DNA of 64,000 nucleotides. It comes from Streptomyces capitiformicae. GTDB lineage: Bacteria; Actinomycetota; Actinomycetes; Streptomycetales; Streptomycetaceae. A model generated the notes under the pieces. That model was not told the DNA's origin and made no database searches. It was given only the letters and a program-made list of their open reading frames with translations. Positions 37,354 through 44,035 of this stretch are shown one piece after another. The DNA is taken from assembly GCF_002214185.1 (NCBI RefSeq), contig NZ_CP022161.1:992001-1056000 (forward strand), in the 5' to 3' direction. A program made the translations under genes and the position numbers. Each line of letters opens with the position of its first letter. The stretch's first letter is position 1.

Positions 37354-38034
37354 CTACGCCGGTACGAGCCTCCCGGCGCGCATCTCGATCGAGCGGTCCG
37401 CGAAGTGGCGTACAACCGCGCGGTCGTGGCAGATGAACAGGTACGCCAGGTTCAGCTCGTCCTGGAGGTCGGCGAGGAGGTTGAGGACGCCGGCCCGGAT
37501 GGAGGGGTCGAGCGCGGAGACCGGTTCGTCGAGGACCAGGAGGCGGGGCTCGGAGGCCAGCGCGCGGGCGATACCGGCGCGTTGGCACTGTCCGCCGGAC
37601 AACTCGTGCGGGAAGCGGTCGCCGTAGGCGGGGTCCAGGCCGACCCGGTCGAGGAGTTCGGCGACCCGGGCCGGGCCGTCCGCGGTGTTCCAGCGACCCT
37701 GGACCTTCAGCGGTTCCGCCACCGCGTCCCGGATGCGGTGGCGAGGGCTGAGCGAGCCGTACGGGTCCTGGAAGACCGGCTGCATGCGGGGGCGGAGCGG
37801 GCGCAGTTCGCGCTCGGCGAGGGTCGTCAACTCCCGGCCCTCGAAACGGACTTCGCCTCCCTCCGGGCGGCGCAGCTGGAGCACCGCGGCGATCGTGGAG
37901 GACTTGCCGCAGCCGGAGGGGCCGTTCAGGGCGAGGGTCTCGCCCGCGTCCACGGTGAAGGAGACATGGTCCACGGCCGTGACGGTGCCGTAGCGGACGA
38001 CCAGGTCTCGCACATCGAGCAGGGCATCACTCAT
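37354..38034 (-). CDS. Peptide/metallophore-type ABC transporter ATPase (second, DppF-like)
   Basis: A 226-residue ATPase. Walker A is GPSGCGKSS, the Q-loop is in PVFQDPYGSLSPR, the signature is LSGGQCQR and Walker B is LLVLDEPVSALD, followed by CHDRAVV (H-loop). It is shorter than usual DppF because the C-terminal oligopeptide-transporter extension with its Cys motif is absent. Its ATG overlaps the stop of the other ATPase by four bases (ATGA). It is the last gene of the importer operon. Confidence 0.92.
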   Translation of the reverse strand: MSDALLDVRDLVVRYGTVTAVDHVSFTVDAGETLALNGPSGCGKSSTIAAVLQLRRPEGGEVRFEGRELTTLAERELRPLRPRMQPVFQDPYGSLSPRHRIRDAVAEPLKVQGRWNTADGPARVAELLDRVGLDPAYGDRFPHELSGGQCQRAGIARALASEPRLLVLDEPVSALDPSIRAGVLNLLADLQDELNLAYLFICHDRAVVRHFADRSIEMRAGRLVPA

Positions 38035-39098
38035 ACGGGCTGCTCCAGGAACAACTCGGTCGCCGAGGACGGCACTTCGTCCCAGCGGTGGCAGGAGACC
38101 TCGTGGTCGGCGCCGGCCGTCCACGTCCCCGGTTCCTCCTGGTGACAGCGGTCCTCGGCCAGGGGGCAGCGGGGTGCGAAGGCGCAGCCGGGCGGGAGGG
38201 CGTCGGGGGTGGGCGGGGAGCCGGAGATGGACGGCAGCCGACGGCGACGAGTGCGCGGGTCGCCGTCGGGGGCGTCCGGTGGCAGCGACGCCAGCAGGCC
38301 CGCCGTGTACGGTGCCCGGGGGCGGCCCAGGACCCGTTCGGTCGGGCCCTGTTCGACCTGGCGACCGGCGTACATGACCAGGACGCGATCGGCGTGGTCC
38401 CGGACCACGCCGAGGTCGTGGGTGACCAGGACGAGCGCGGCGCCGACCGCCTCACGCTGCTCGCCGAGGACCCGTAGGACCTGTTCCTGGAGTTCCGCGT
38501 CGAGGGCGGTCGTGGGTTCGTCGGCGACGACCACGTCGGGTTCGTTGATCGTGGCCATGGCGATCACGGCCCGCTGGCGCATACCGCCGGAGTACTCGTG
38601 CGGATACGCCCGCGCCTTGCGTACGGCGTCGGGGATGCCGACCCGGTCGAGCGCGGCGACCGCCCGGGCGCGGGCCTCCTTGCGGGAGACGCCCGCCACC
38701 GACCGTACGGCCGCGGCGAGTTGGTCGCCGACGGGGTGCACGGGGGAGAGGGCGGACAGGGCGTCCTGGGGGACGAGGGCGATACGGCGGCCGCGCTGGG
38801 CGGCGATGTCCGTCTCGCCCCGCAGCCGTACCGTTCCGCTCGACGTGGCGCCCTTGGGCAGCATCCCGAGCAGGGCCCGTGCCGCGAGGGACTTGCCCGC
38901 GCCGGACTCGCCGACGACGGCCAGCACTTCGCGCTCGCGGACGTCGAACGACAGACCGCGTACGGCCGCCACCCCGTCGAACGAGATGCGCAGGTCGCGC
39001 ACCGACAGCAGCACGCCGGACGTCACGTCGGACGGCATGCCGGACGTCACGTCGGACGTCACGTCGGACGTCACGTCGGACGGCACGTCGGATGTCAT
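38031..39098 (-). CDS. Peptide/metallophore-type ABC transporter ATPase (first, DppD-like)
   Basis: A 355-residue ATPase with Walker A GESGAGKSL, signature YSGGMRQRAVIAM and Walker B DVVVADEPTTALDAE. The C-terminal oligo_HPY extension has the cysteine-rich PPGCAFAPRCPLAEDRC, which may bind a cluster or metal. The N-terminus is unusual: about 30 residues of TSDV/PSDV repeats come from a 12-base tandem repeat. ATG 39098 lies one base past the permease stop, so it is translationally coupled; ATG 39038 and GTG 39014 are also in frame. Confidence 0.9.
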   Translation of the reverse strand: MTSDVPSDVTSDVTSDVTSGMPSDVTSGVLLSVRDLRISFDGVAAVRGLSFDVREREVLAVVGESGAGKSLAARALLGMLPKGATSSGTVRLRGETDIAAQRGRRIALVPQDALSALSPVHPVGDQLAAAVRSVAGVSRKEARARAVAALDRVGIPDAVRKARAYPHEYSGGMRQRAVIAMATINEPDVVVADEPTTALDAELQEQVLRVLGEQREAVGAALVLVTHDLGVVRDHADRVLVMYAGRQVEQGPTERVLGRPRAPYTAGLLASLPPDAPDGDPRTRRRRLPSISGSPPTPDALPPGCAFAPRCPLAEDRCHQEEPGTWTAGADHEVSCHRWDEVPSSATELFLEQPV

Positions 39099-39107
39099 GT
39101 CAGACGT
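39012..39107 (-). repeat. 12-base tandem repeat at permease/ATPase junction
   Basis: Eight imperfect 12-base units of the type ACGTCCGACGTG (minus strand). The first unit holds both the permease stop and the ATPase ATG. Every unit ends in ATG or GTG in the ATPase frame, so each one offers a possible start codon. Translation gives repeated T/P-S-D/G-V/M. Confidence 0.9.
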
Positions 39108-40896
39108 CGGCTCGGACTGCGACTTCAACGGAAGCCTCCTCCTTCGTGATGCGTGCTCGGCCTGCCTTTCCCATACGGCGGCCGCCTGTGCGGCCCTGCG
39201 CGTACGCCGCGCCCGACACCGCAAGACCCGCCAGCAGCGCCAGGGCGACTGCCGGGGCCAGGGCCGCCCACGGGGCGCGCTCCACGTAGGCGCGGGACTC
39301 GTCGAGGAGCAGGCCCCACTCGGGGGCGGGAGGTTGGGCGCCCAGGCCGAGGAAGCCGAGCGCGGCCAGCGCCAGGGCGATGCCCGGGAGACGGAGGATG
39401 GCGTGGCGGGTGACCGGGGCCGCCACGGAGGGCAGCACATGGCGGGTGAGGATCCACAACGGGCTCGCGCCGATGGCCCGTTGGGCGGTCAGGAACGTGG
39501 ACGCGCGGACCTCCTGGACCAGGGCGGCCGCGTGCGCGGCCAGGGCGGGCCAGGAGATCAGCGCGACCGCCAGGGCCGCCCCGCCCGTGCCGGGGCCGAC
39601 GACCGCGGCGACGAGGATGCCGGCGATCACCGGGGGCAGCGCGTTGGCGATGTCCGCCGCGCCCGCCGCCACGCTCGGCAGGAAGCCGAGGGCCAGGGAG
39701 AGGAGGAGGCTGAAGGCGCAGACCGCCGCCGCCGTGCCCACCGTGGAGGCCGCGCCGTGGCCGAGGCGGGCCAGTACGTCACGGCCGAGTCCGTCCGTGC
39801 CGAGCGGGTGCGCCCAGGAGGGCGGGAGAAGGCGGGCGGTCGTGTCCACGGCGTACGGGTCGCGCAGCAGGCCCCAGCCGATGGTGACCAGGAGGACGAC
39901 CGCCAGGGTCAGCGGTACCGCCGGGTGGGTGCGGATCGGGCGGGCCGCCGGGAGCGTCAGGCCCGCGTCGCGCAGGGCCGGACCGAGCAGTCGGCGCCGG
40001 GCGAGTGCGGCGAGGGCGCCCACGACCAGGCCGAGGGCGAGGAGGGCGAGGACCGAGCCCTGGAGGAGGGGGAGGTCCTGGGACTTGGCCGCGCCCAGTG
40101 CCGTACGGCCGATGCCGGGGACCGCGAACACCGTCTCCACGGCGACCGCGCCGCCGGTCAGGCCCACGGCGACCATGCCGAACTGAGGGACCAGCGGCGG
40201 TAGTACGCGCCGGAGCGCGGCCGCCGAGACCCGCGCCCGGCTCACGCCCGCGCCTCGCCACAGTTCGACCCAGCGTTCGTCGAGCACGGCGGGCAGCGCG
40301 TCCGCGACCAGACGGCCGAGGAGGCCGCCGGCCGGGACGCCGAGGGCGATCGCGGGCAGGACCATGTACTCCGGGCCCGCCCAGCCGGACGTGGGCAGCC
40401 AGCCCAGCCAGACCCCGCACACCAGCAATACCACCGTGGCCAGCAGGAACTCGGGCACGGCGGCCAGCATCGAGGCGAACGCGCCGCTCGACCCCCGGCC
40501 CCGTACGAGAACCGGGGCGACCAGCGCGCAGGCCAGCAGCACGGCCACGGCGAAGGAGGCGCCCATCAGGCCCAGGGAGACCTGGAGGCCGGAGACCACG
40601 GAGGGGAGGACGTCCGTGCCCGAGACCCATGACGTGCCGAGGTCGCCCCGAAGGAGCCCGGAGGTCCAATTCCCCAGCAGGGAAAGGGGACTGGCGTCCA
40701 GGCCCAGGTCCTCGCGGATCGCGGCGAGCGCCTCGGGCGTCGCCTCCTGCTCGGCGGAGCGGGCGCGCAGCACGGTCAGCGCCGGGTCGCGGCCGGAGAG
40801 CCAGGGCAGGAGGCCGACCACGGTCAGGACGGTGATCAGGCAGACGAAGCGGGTCAGCCCTGCCGGGCTGACCGACTTCCTTGCGGCCGACCTCAC
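39100..40896 (-). CDS. ABC transporter permease, fused DppB-DppC type
   Basis: A 598-residue protein that joins the two permeases of an oligopeptide/nickel-type importer. The first half resembles DppB: an N-terminal helix, LSLLGNWTSGLLRGDLGTSW, then an EAA-like loop around ERWVELWRGAGVSRARV and ETVFAVPGIGRTAL. The second half resembles DppC: HPLGTDGLGRDVLARL and an EAA loop near TFLTAQRAIGASPLWILTRH. These are normally two genes. GTG 40896 overlaps the binding-protein stop by four bases (GTGA). Confidence 0.92.
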   Translation of the reverse strand: MRSAARKSVSPAGLTRFVCLITVLTVVGLLPWLSGRDPALTVLRARSAEQEATPEALAAIREDLGLDASPLSLLGNWTSGLLRGDLGTSWVSGTDVLPSVVSGLQVSLGLMGASFAVAVLLACALVAPVLVRGRGSSGAFASMLAAVPEFLLATVVLLVCGVWLGWLPTSGWAGPEYMVLPAIALGVPAGGLLGRLVADALPAVLDERWVELWRGAGVSRARVSAAALRRVLPPLVPQFGMVAVGLTGGAVAVETVFAVPGIGRTALGAAKSQDLPLLQGSVLALLALGLVVGALAALARRRLLGPALRDAGLTLPAARPIRTHPAVPLTLAVVLLVTIGWGLLRDPYAVDTTARLLPPSWAHPLGTDGLGRDVLARLGHGAASTVGTAAAVCAFSLLLSLALGFLPSVAAGAADIANALPPVIAGILVAAVVGPGTGGAALAVALISWPALAAHAAALVQEVRASTFLTAQRAIGASPLWILTRHVLPSVAAPVTRHAILRLPGIALALAALGFLGLGAQPPAPEWGLLLDESRAYVERAPWAALAPAVALALLAGLAVSGAAYAQGRTGGRRMGKAGRARITKEEASVEVAVRADV

Positions 40897-42380
40897 TTGA
40901 CGTAGGTGTCGGCCGTGACCAGCTCCCGCTCGCGCGGGTCGTGGGCCGCGTCCACGACCCCGGCCGCGTCGCCCTGGATGACGCGCTCGTGCAGCATCGG
41001 GACGGCGGCGTCGGTGCCGAGCACGGCGGCCTCGGCCTCGATGACCGCCTTGCGGCGGGCGTCACCGGTGGCGGTCTCGGAGGCCTTGTCCAGGGCCGCG
41101 TCGACCGTCTTGTCGGCGAACTGGGAGAGGTTGAAGGAGCCGTCGGAGCCGAAGTCGCTGTAGAGGTACGCGGCCGGGTCGCCGGAGTCGAGGACGGTCG
41201 CCCGGGAGAGGATGAACGCGTCGAACTCGCCCGCCAGCGCGTCGGATTCGATGTTGGCGTACTCGCGCACGTCGAGCTTCACCTTGAACCCGGCCTTCTG
41301 CAGCTGCTGCTGGAGCGTGGCCGCGACCTCGGGCAGCTCGGCGCGGTCGCTGTAGGTACCGATGGTGATGGTCTGGCCGGAGGGCTTGCCCGCCGCGGCG
41401 CGCTTCACCGTGGAGCGCAGCTCGGCGGCCCAGGGGAGTGCCGGGCCGAGCAGACCCTCGGCCACGTCCGCGCGTCCCTCGTACACACCCTCGACGATCG
41501 ACTTCGCGTCGATGGCCTCGCGGGCGGCGGCGCGCAGCGAGACGTCCTTGAAGACGCCCTTCTCGGTGTTCAGGTAGAGGGTGTTGGTGCGCGGCATCGG
41601 GACCTCGGTGATCAGGTCCTGGTCGAGCACGGCGGCCTGCGACACCGGGATCGCCTCGACGATGTCGGCCTCGCCGGTGCGCAGGGCGGCCGCGCGGGCG
41701 GTGCCGTCCGGCACGAACTTCACGTCGATGCCGGGGGCCTTGGCCTTGCCGCCCCAGTAGCCGTCGTAGCGGTCGAGGGAGGCGGAGGAGGTGCCGTTGA
41801 CCTTGGTCAGCTCGAAGGGGCCGGTGCCCGCGCCGACCGGGTTCACCGTCTTCCCCTTGTACGCCTTCGCCGCGAGGATCGACAGCTGGGGCGAGCTGAG
41901 GCGCTGCGGGACCAGCGGGTCCTCGGTGCCGGTCGTGACGGTGACGGTGTTGCCGTCGGCCTTCGCGGTCAGCTCCACGCCGTCGAGGATGCGGGGCTTG
42001 GGGGAGGCGGTGGCGGCCACGGTGAGGGAGTTGACGACGGCCTCACCGGTGAGCTTCGTACCGTCGTGGAAGGTGACGCCGTCCCGGATCGTGAACGTCC
42101 AGCTCTTGCCGGACTGCTCCCACTCGGTGGCCAGCGCGGGCTGCGCGTCGCCCACCGCGTTCAGCTTCACCAGGGTTTCGGCGGTCGACCAGCGGGACAG
42201 CTTGAACGCGTCGTCGGAGAGCGGGGACAGACCCGAGCGGGGCGGCAGCATGTGCGCGACACGTATGCGCTTGCCCTCGCTGCCTGCCTCCTCCGTTCCC
42301 ACCGACGAGAAGCAGCCCGTGAGCAGGGCGGAGGCCGCGGTGGCCGCGGTCAAGGGGAGAAGACGGGCGGGGACGCGCAC
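40893..42380 (-). CDS. ABC transporter substrate-binding lipoprotein (family 5)
   Basis: A 495-residue exported lipoprotein with lipobox LLTGC, C23 lipidated. The SBP_bac_5 pattern is clear: SWTFTIRDGVTFHDGTKLTGEAVVNSL, GTGPFELTKV, and YDGYWGGKAKAPGIDVKFVPD. Such proteins bind peptides, nickel complexes, opines or nicotianamine-like metallophores; no heme or metal ligand can be assigned. GGAG lies seven bases before the GTG start. It is the first gene of the importer operon and lies 58 bases from a Zur/Fur-like inverted repeat, which hints at metal-responsive expression. Confidence 0.92.
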   Translation of the reverse strand: MRVPARLLPLTAATAASALLTGCFSSVGTEEAGSEGKRIRVAHMLPPRSGLSPLSDDAFKLSRWSTAETLVKLNAVGDAQPALATEWEQSGKSWTFTIRDGVTFHDGTKLTGEAVVNSLTVAATASPKPRILDGVELTAKADGNTVTVTTGTEDPLVPQRLSSPQLSILAAKAYKGKTVNPVGAGTGPFELTKVNGTSSASLDRYDGYWGGKAKAPGIDVKFVPDGTARAAALRTGEADIVEAIPVSQAAVLDQDLITEVPMPRTNTLYLNTEKGVFKDVSLRAAAREAIDAKSIVEGVYEGRADVAEGLLGPALPWAAELRSTVKRAAAGKPSGQTITIGTYSDRAELPEVAATLQQQLQKAGFKVKLDVREYANIESDALAGEFDAFILSRATVLDSGDPAAYLYSDFGSDGSFNLSQFADKTVDAALDKASETATGDARRKAVIEAEAAVLGTDAAVPMLHERVIQGDAAGVVDAAHDPRERELVTADTYVK

Positions 42381-42437
42381 GGGACACTCCGGGTAAAGGC
42401 GTGGTCAAAGGTTGAACGCTCACCGACCGTAGCATGA

Positions 42438-42452
42438 TGACAATCATTTTCA
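42438..42452. promoter_or_regulatory. Zur/Fur-like 7-1-7 inverted repeat
   Basis: TGACAAT-C-ATTTTCA is an inverted repeat with one mismatch and very AT-rich for this genome. It closely resembles the TGAAAATCATTTTCA-type site of actinobacterial Zur (as I recall it). It is centred in the 140-base gap between the divergent importer operon and the three-module Cys/His gene, so one site could control both. Confidence 0.6.
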
Positions 42453-42520: not shown

Positions 42521-44035
42521 GTGAGGGAGATCGACGGCACGCCACTCGACGAACTCGCCCGTACCTGGGGCGACATGCAGGACCGCTACCTGTATCCCAG
42601 CCGCGGCGAGTACAACGGGCCGGTCCTCGACTGCGCCGCCCGTCTCGTCGCCGATCCGGGCGGCGAGACCGCGTATGTGTGGACGCTCGGCTTGGCGATC
42701 ATGGCCCCCTACCTCGCGGGGCTGCCGAAAGAGGACCTCACGGAGGGGGACCGGGGCGCGGACGTCCGGCGCGAGGCCGAGGCCGCCCTGAGGGCTGCCG
42801 ACGGCCACCTGCGAGACCAGCCCTGCGACCACGACACGCACCCGTACCGCACCCATGAAGCCGAGGAGAACGACGAGGAACTCCCCGGGCTGTTGCCCCG
42901 GCTCGCCGACGAGAACGCCGAGTGGGACGAGAACCAGCCCCGGGAGGAGTGGCTCTGCCCACGCAATGTCGCCGGATACGCGCGGATCGCCCTGGACATC
43001 ATCGAGCCGGGCCAAGTCCCGGACGTCCCGCCCCGGTTGCCGATGGAGGACCGGGAGGACATCGACACGTTGGAAGGGGTGCTGGAGCTCTATCCCGGGG
43101 CCGGGACCGACGTCGCGAGCGCGATCGCCTCGCAGGGCTGGAACCTCGCTCTCGCGGAGCCCGCCGACCGTCCCGGCCGTCTCCAGGCCGTACGGGCGGT
43201 GAGCTGGCACGCTGTCTCCGGCATGATCCGGGACAAGTCCGTCCTCGACGACCTGATCAACAGCGTCGAGAAGGTCCTGCCCGACTTCGCCGACGCGACC
43301 TGCGACCACGACGCGCACCCGCGCCTGTCCGGCAGCGGCACGGCCGCCTCCCGGCTCGGCATCACCCTGAGCAGTCCCGGCGGACGGGCCGTCTACGAAC
43401 GGGACCGCCACTCCTATTTCCATGGGGACGTCCCGCTGGAGCAGGTGGTGTGCCCGGTGTTCATGGCGGAGGTGGCGCAGGAGACGCTGGCCGAGTTGCG
43501 CGAGGGCCGCGACCGGCTCTTCGGGCCCCGCGACACCTCGCATCTCGACGCCGAGTATCTGCGGGCGGACGGGCGGCTGGAGATCGGGAAGATCGTGGAG
43601 CGGCTCGACGGCAAGAGCTGGAACCAGAAGTACGCCGACGATCTGGGGCTTTGGGCCGCTCGACGGTACGACCGGGGCGGGCGGGTCGGCGACCGGGAGC
43701 GGGTCGTCCTCCTGCTCGTCGCCCACCGGACGATGACGATCTCGTACCCCGGTCCGGTCCTGGCCGCCGTCGAAGGCATCACCGCGACGATGCGCGCCGT
43801 CGCCGCCGCTCCCCGCCCCGAGGAGTGCGCCCACACCGACGCCCACCCGCCCCTGGACAGCGGGAAGTTCCGGACGGACCTGCCGCACTTCTACGCGCCG
43901 GACGAGTTCCCGCCCGCCGGAGAGGTCCGCGGAGTGGAGTCGTGGACGTGCCCGCGGTTCGCCGCGGAGATCGCCGAGAAGAGCGTCGAACGGCTGGAGG
44001 GCCTGTACGAGGAGGACACCGAGGACGAGTGGTGA
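42521..44035 (+). CDS. Unrecognised protein with three Cys/His modules
   Basis: A 504-residue soluble protein made of three roughly 165-residue repeats. Each has a helical part and a motif of the type C-D-H-D-x-H-P, followed 41-50 residues later by C-P. The positions are C102/H104/H107 with C146, C261/H263/H266 with C311, and C436/H438/H442 with C477. Each set could form one CHHC zinc site. No signal peptide or membrane segment is seen and I know no named family. GTG 42521 is preferred; ATG 42434 would begin inside the Zur-like box. It is divergent from the ABC importer and may share its metal control. Confidence 0.75.
   Translation: MREIDGTPLDELARTWGDMQDRYLYPSRGEYNGPVLDCAARLVADPGGETAYVWTLGLAIMAPYLAGLPKEDLTEGDRGADVRREAEAALRAADGHLRDQPCDHDTHPYRTHEAEENDEELPGLLPRLADENAEWDENQPREEWLCPRNVAGYARIALDIIEPGQVPDVPPRLPMEDREDIDTLEGVLELYPGAGTDVASAIASQGWNLALAEPADRPGRLQAVRAVSWHAVSGMIRDKSVLDDLINSVEKVLPDFADATCDHDAHPRLSGSGTAASRLGITLSSPGGRAVYERDRHSYFHGDVPLEQVVCPVFMAEVAQETLAELREGRDRLFGPRDTSHLDAEYLRADGRLEIGKIVERLDGKSWNQKYADDLGLWAARRYDRGGRVGDRERVVLLLVAHRTMTISYPGPVLAAVEGITATMRAVAAAPRPEECAHTDAHPPLDSGKFRTDLPHFYAPDEFPPAGEVRGVESWTCPRFAAEIAEKSVERLEGLYEEDTEDEW

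Follow-up and report, generated by a model that had tools for sequence, protein, structure and literature searches.

A 15-bp inverted repeat that lies upstream of a four-gene importer operon of Streptomyces capitiformicae, within the 64,000-nucleotide stretch of DNA analyzed here (the window), is very probably the predicted switch by which Zur shuts off this importer. We consider it quite likely that this box is the operator of the operon, that Zur represses the operon through it in response to zinc, and that the importer would serve for the uptake of a zinc chelate. Of these parts, the predicted control of the importer by Zur is well supported, while a zinc chelate is the likely substrate, given the family of the importer and its regulation. 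The box, its conservation, a promoter-like footprint, the gene content of the operon, and the presence of a Fur-family gene following znu were all read from the DNA itself. From these we infer binding by Zur, a response to zinc, and uptake of a chelate. The features of the locus are listed below in window coordinates.

42438..42452, no strand assigned: Zur box, candidate operator, TGACAATCATTTTCA / TGAAAATGATTGTCA (match to a published consensus, conservation among orthologues)
42426..42434, minus strand: TGCTACGGT, probable extended -10 element of the putative importer promoter, 3 bases past the box
40893..42380, minus strand: substrate-binding lipoprotein, SBP_bac_5, nearest to NikA/Opp5A (PF00496, E 2.3e-67)
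39100..40896, minus strand: fused permease, NikB-like and NikC-like halves in one chain (two BPD_transp_1 stretches)
38031..39014, minus strand: first ATPase, OppD/NikD-like (ABC_tran and oligo_HPY)
37354..38034, minus strand: second ATPase, OppF/NikE-like (ABC_tran, E 1.6e-29)
42521..44035, plus strand: divergent protein of three modules, with three C-x-H-x2-3-H ... C motifs (start GTG, taken from linked loci)

The box lies exactly where the preliminary description of this DNA had reported it and has a 7-1-7 symmetry with one imperfect pair. When the window was searched with the 15-mer at up to 3 mismatches, the only matches were the box itself on both strands (2 matches, with 0.13 expected and at least 2 in 2 of 100 shuffled windows). 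The box was also the sole match in the window, at up to 3 mismatches, to the idealized palindrome TGAAAATNATTTTCA, which we used for scoring and drew up ourselves after the box had been seen (0.04 matches expected; at least one in 4 of 100 shuffled windows). Across the genome (10.99 Mb in one contig, of which the window is C1:992001-1056000), there are two exact copies of the 15-mer. A consensus scan of the genome was carried out with the 15-bp Zur motif given for S. coelicolor in the account of its ChIP analysis, tGaNNatSatNNtCa (PMC5472717). The motif occurs in 7 places, compared to 0 for a reversed control pattern; the box is an exact match, and five of the seven sites differ from it in their core.

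A search with the binding protein over 295 Streptomyces genomes separated orthologues (73-100% identity) from paralogues (at most 57%), and an importer orthologue is present in 48 of the genomes, about a sixth of the sampled species. For each orthologue, we scored the region starting 300 bases upstream of the binding-protein gene and took the best Zur-type site. All 48 orthologues have a Zur-type box (at least 10/14), which scores 13/14 in 15 of them, 12/14 in 31, 11/14 in one, and 10/14 in one, and which lies 49-97 bases upstream of the start of the gene. Among 2,400 resampled upstream regions, none reached 12/14 and 3 scored 11/14 (first-order Markov resampling, which was used for both Zur-box and iron-box scoring). 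Because it is conserved in all of these orthologous promoters, the box stands well above chance, and the earlier proposal that it is a Zur/Fur-family box of the importer is not only supported but strengthened.

Conservation around the box is uneven. When the 48 upstream regions are aligned on it, positions within the box have on average 1.74 bits, and on the importer side TGCTACGGT has 0.97-1.21 bits per position. The 45 bases on the far side of the box have a mean of 0.24 bits, with the exception of a T at -3 (1.12 bits). This footprint resembles that of an operator adjoining the -10 element in what would be the importer promoter. Across the box from the importer, the neighboring gene varies (a P450, a PucR regulator, and others) in the thirty loci L060-L089 and eight longer neighborhoods L092-L099 that were surveyed, sixteen shorter loci being uninformative, and the survey met the three-module gene in just two places, the locus of the window itself and genome G262. 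The box, as judged from these comparisons, belongs to the importer and appears to stay with it whatever the neighbor. The genes surrounding the importer in the window include serA and proline dehydrogenase genes (named by eye), an MFS pump, a TetR regulator, a P450, and a PucR regulator, several of which flank the same importer in other species.

The preliminary description had also placed the box between divergent genes, which holds if the three-module gene starts at GTG 42521 but not if it starts at ATG 42434. The latter start, which would give a 533-aa open reading frame (ORF) with the box inside the three-module gene, was rejected: judged by eye, the frame is stopped in L058 and G262, two of the four other genomes with the linked pair. 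GTG 42521 is the start common to the linked loci, and the box therefore lies in a divergent intergenic region of 140 bases.

The operon runs leftward of the box and has four genes, encoding a binding lipoprotein (with a lipobox, LTGC, evident from its sequence), a fused permease, and two ATPases. In the permease, Opp2B matches positions 18-300 and Opp2C matches positions 345-555, and neither reaches the NCBIfam cut-off. The permease gene overlaps the binding-protein gene by 4 bases and the two ATPase genes overlap at ATGA, the start of the first ATPase (GTG 39014) having been chosen by where its family matches begin within an ORF that is open to 39440. With an SBP_bac_5 lipoprotein, two permease domains (fused), and two ATPases, the make-up of an Opp/NikA-type (cluster C) importer is complete, so that what had been described as a metallophore- or peptide-type importer was borne out as Opp/NikA-type by Pfam, NCBIfam, and solved relatives. 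The gap that separates the permease gene from that of the first ATPase (39014-39100) contains a short tandem repeat whose unit resembles GACGTGACGTCC. If translated in the open frame, it would encode Ser-Asp-Val-Thr repeats, and similar residues occur in L044.

Binding proteins of the Opp/NikA type take up metals as chelates, and the importer therefore most likely brings in chelated zinc. Peptides are likewise cargo of Opp-type proteins, and the alternative that best survives is that the box is a Zur operator but that the cargo is peptides or some other nutrient helpful under zinc shortage, rather than a zinc chelate. We regard this alternative as rather unlikely. The binding protein scores 222 bits against the NCBIfam Opp5A_nikA model (cut-off 600), 116 bits against nickel_nikA (cut-off 393), and 64 bits against the CntA model (cut-off 800), and the DppA, OppA, and GsiB models match as well, all of which would fit a peptide cargo. 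The protein thus appears to be a relative of NikA and no equivalog, and since its scores lie below the NikA and CntA cut-offs, the substrate is not readable from the family. The lack of any recognized metallophore gene beside the importer, among the window genes scanned with Pfam and NCBIfam, also favors peptides. On the other hand, the top models point to nickel binding, as do two of the three best solved relatives (the best is 3t66 and the third is SaNikA, 4ofj), the remaining one being unnamed.

The regulatory sites of the paralogues also argue against peptides. We examined 41 paralogues, of which 40 were picked by hand down the match list, and hence non-randomly, and one (L091) is from the same genome; an earlier scoring set consisted of 23 paralogues, all within the 40, plus L091. 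Twenty-two of the 41 have a Zur-type box (11-13/14), 9 have an iron-box-like site, and 10 have neither. A score of 12/19 to the iron-box consensus (DmdR1; as given in PMC7174319) is undiagnostic on its own, being reached by 67 of 1,200 shuffled regions and by 6 of the 48 upstream regions of the window's clade. The assignment of iron sites was instead based on a similar GGTAAGGCT..CCTTA stretch, found at roughly the same position in these promoters; L154 scores just 12/19, and the remaining iron-site rows score 13-15. The paralogue in the same genome (L091 5661-7278; G000:C1:4332663-4334162 plus upstream sequence) has an iron-box-like site, TCAAGTTAGGGTCGCCTTA, and no Zur box.

In a phylogeny of 54 binding proteins, for which the midpoint root falls on the very long row L090, the regulator labels fall in blocks, with 3 changes, the minimum possible. 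Clade A, which contains the window's protein and is represented by 12 of the 48 orthologues, has Zur boxes throughout, as does clade B in 20 of 20 sampled rows. Support is 100/100 for each of the two clades and 92/76 for their union, and clade B is probably the sister of clade A. The 48 genomes with clade A and the 20 sampled genomes with clade B do not overlap (P = 0.053, kinship ignored). Clade D consists of 10 unlabeled rows and 2 others that branch early and have Zur boxes, and the nine iron-site rows lie outside clades A, B, and D, with no single clade resolved. Because in clade D another gene precedes the binding-protein gene (in L186, a GNAT acetyltransferase gene by Pfam), no site is expected at the binding-protein gene itself; among four clade D loci that were inspected, L186 and L187 have a Zur-type box where the operon begins, and L184 and L185 have none there. 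The box in L186 (4803) and L187 (5111) is common to the importer operon and a divergent gene for a CbiA/ParA-type ATPase, and in the S. capitiformicae genome a CbiA/ParA-type ATPase gene likewise has a Zur-type box in front (L041 3964-4993). Taken together, the family looks like one of metal-acquisition importers divided by metal, and Zur or iron-type boxes on its members would be odd for importers of peptides.

A further consideration is a gene cluster at G000:C1:5609121-5618066 (L090, L120), 4.57 Mb from the importer and preceded by a box, TGAAAATGATTATCG. Its genes encode an ATP-grasp protein, an SbnA-like protein, an MFS exporter, a methyltransferase, a NikA-like binding protein, and a NikB-like permease, none of which reaches its NCBIfam cut-off, and the ATP-grasp gene has a box (10-12/14) in all 12 loci inspected, including this one. 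The cluster looks like one for an EDDS-type metallophore with its own importer. In Amycolatopsis japonicum, production of [S,S]-EDDS is described as Zur-controlled (PMC9252823, PMC6103462). The S. capitiformicae cluster resembles that system in having ATP-grasp, SbnA-like, MFS, and NikA-like genes behind a Zur-type box, but differs from it in that its genes fall below the cut-offs and in that it is known here from genes alone. To count genomes, we used 78 ATP-grasp matches, from which nine weak ones (34-42% identity) were dropped. The cluster occurs in 24 of the 48 genomes with the clade A importer and in 45 of the 247 others (Fisher's exact test, P = 9e-6, kinship ignored), an association that speaks against peptides but that kinship may explain. 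Specifically, the link is absent for clade B (7 of 20 genomes versus 62 of 275 others, P = 0.27) and present for the three-module gene (14 of 31 versus 55 of 264, P = 0.006), and kinship may therefore underlie the association of the cluster with the importer.

Returning to the reading that we prefer, in which a zinc chelate is the cargo, we envision that, when zinc is sufficient, zinc-loaded Zur would sit on the box, just upstream of TGCTACGGT, and exclude RNA polymerase. When zinc runs short, Zur would release the box and the importer would be expressed. The importer would then fetch zinc bound to a small chelator, alongside the Znu zinc importer. The chelator may be an EDDS-like metallophore, supplied by the cell's own cluster or by that of a neighbor. 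The three-module gene, which shares the intergenic region, may respond to Zur as a bystander. As a broader and more tentative possibility, Streptomyces may have an unnamed Opp/NikA-type family with fused permeases that is split by metal into two Zur clades and a DmdR group, in which the window's clade would be the zinc-chelate arm, possibly for an EDDS-like zincophore from the separate Zur-boxed cluster.

The preliminary description went further and suggested that the importer and the three-module protein form a shared locus for zinc uptake and storage. In the corresponding alternative, which we consider improbable, Zur would govern both directions and the three-module protein would store zinc or pass it on. 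The protein has no match in Pfam, NCBIfam, or PADLOC, and its structure model is mostly helical (pLDDT of 93.7). Residues C102, H104, H107, and C146 and residues C261, H263, H266, and C311 are invariant in 61 sequences, and the third set (C436, H438, H442, and C477) is present in 12 of 12 three-module sequences. The invariant Cys/His motifs thus bear out the earlier report of three potential sites and make metal binding by the protein plausible, whereas a zinc role, and zinc storage in particular, is unsupported. Besides these invariant motifs, two-way control would draw on the head-to-head arrangement of the two genes with the box between them in five genomes (the window's, L044, L043, L058, and G262) and on a weak -35 on the plus strand, noticed by eye, that the box could overlap.

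The distribution of the gene argues against such control. A search of genome contigs for the three-module family yielded 17 fetched loci, of which 3 (from S. ipomoeae, S. tailanensis, and S. niveiscabiei) lie beside the importer with its box. The other 14, which include two-module relatives and a locus that matches over 26 residues only (L059), are not adjacent to the importer and lack any box scoring at least 11/14. Of the 295 genomes, 31 have a relative of this protein, and the importer gene is within the fetched locus (about 1.5 kb of flank) in only two of the 30 that were fetched, those of G000 and G262. Seen from the importer, the pair occurs in only 2 of 30 longer orthologue loci (L060 and L089), and the three-module gene is present in 7 of the 48 importer genomes versus 24 of the 247 others (Fisher's exact test, P = 0.31, kinship ignored), i.e., its presence is unassociated with that of the importer. 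The weak conservation on the three-module side of the box, save for the T three bases out, also runs counter to control in that direction. The pairing recurs in five genomes, yet it is no rule; the box follows the importer, and the idea of a shared locus was not supported. The three-module gene is probably for the most part a lodger, and any effect of Zur on it would be incidental. Elsewhere, relatives of the three-module protein are encoded in tandem, with two or three copies per array (G205:C71:10729-14058, G114:C773:2625-5924, and G284:C1:672488-674882).

The assignment of the box to Zur is based on its motif, in a genome that has four genes of the FUR family. The best FUR-family match is located some 90 bases past the znu genes, the same position that zur has in S. 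coelicolor, and by this synteny it is presumably Zur. Two boxes, TGACAATCGTTTCCA and TGAAAATGACTGTCA, belong to the znuA gene itself (PF01297; its two companions were named by eye). With four such proteins, and with an importer whose nearest known relatives are nickel systems, the box might instead be read by another Fur-family protein (of the Nur, FurA, or CatR type) and the importer might respond to nickel or redox state. We consider this very improbable, given that the motif is the one found for Zur by ChIP in S. coelicolor and is similar to the znuA boxes. Nur and FurA sites differ in appearance from the Zur motif. Finally, that the box is a chance palindrome without function can be dismissed: although 4 of 100 shuffled windows held as good a palindrome and most exact-consensus sites in the genome have other cores, its retention in every one of the 48 orthologues refutes this view.

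Two other boxes in the genome merit description. The twin of the box (G000:C1:1188482-1188496; L035 4483-4497; L237 1602-1616) is 3 bases past the stop codon of an aldehyde dehydrogenase gene and is followed by a -10-like TGTAGCCT and then directly by a strong terminator-like hairpin. Seven of the 8 full-length relatives (L237-L244, including the twin's own locus) have a box of 11-13/14 at this place, as do 0 of 4 partial ones, and the hairpin is seen in the five relatives read in that direction. The twin could drive a Zur-controlled small RNA. Another box, TGAAAACTATTATCA (L038 4325-4339; G000:C1:285824), is located between saccharopine-dehydrogenase-like and thioredoxin-reductase-like genes.

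A Zur-controlled Opp/NikA-type importer is an already known kind of system. In Staphylococcus aureus, the Opp/NikA-type importer CntABCDF is described as going up when zur or fur is mutated and as serving for zinc-staphylopine (PMC5666155). The window's importer resembles CntABCDF in being Opp/NikA-type with a cluster C binding protein, and CntABCDF is described as raised under zinc limitation. Unlike CntABCDF, however, it scores below the CntA cut-off, has fused permeases and a 7-1-7 actinobacterial DNA site, and has no recognized staphylopine-type biosynthesis genes beside it. In some actinobacteria, dipeptide/oligopeptide-type importers are described beside opine-like zincophore clusters (PMC7438024). 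These are Opp-type like the window's importer and from the same phylum, but in that account they lie at most six ORFs from a CntM homologue, whereas no such homologue was recognized beside the window's importer, an isolated operon with a Zur-type box. NikABCDE and SaNikA provide the best family models and are represented among the closest solved relatives, but the window's importer is far below the equivalog cut-offs and has a Zur-type site. The Zur regulon of S. coelicolor (znuABC, znuB2C2, rpmG/B, rpmF, coelibactin, and zitB) has the same 15-bp motif, and, similarly to it, the znu genes here are boxed and followed by a Fur-family gene. The portion of PMC5472717 that we drew on, which does not extend to its table of 172 sites, names no Opp/NikA-type importer operon in that regulon. 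Within the literature searched, and aside from that S. coelicolor ChIP table, we found neither a Streptomyces instance of such an importer nor paralogues divided by metal.

If our reading is true, zinc uptake in Streptomyces gains a further route besides Znu, in the form of a chelate importer present in 48 of 295 genomes. The importer would also be a candidate for taking up EDDS-like metallophores, for which the excerpts of the literature that we searched gave no description of an uptake route. Moreover, the type of promoter site (Zur versus iron) would predict the metal of each paralogue, and the split among the paralogues offers a test set for how binding proteins choose their metal complex.
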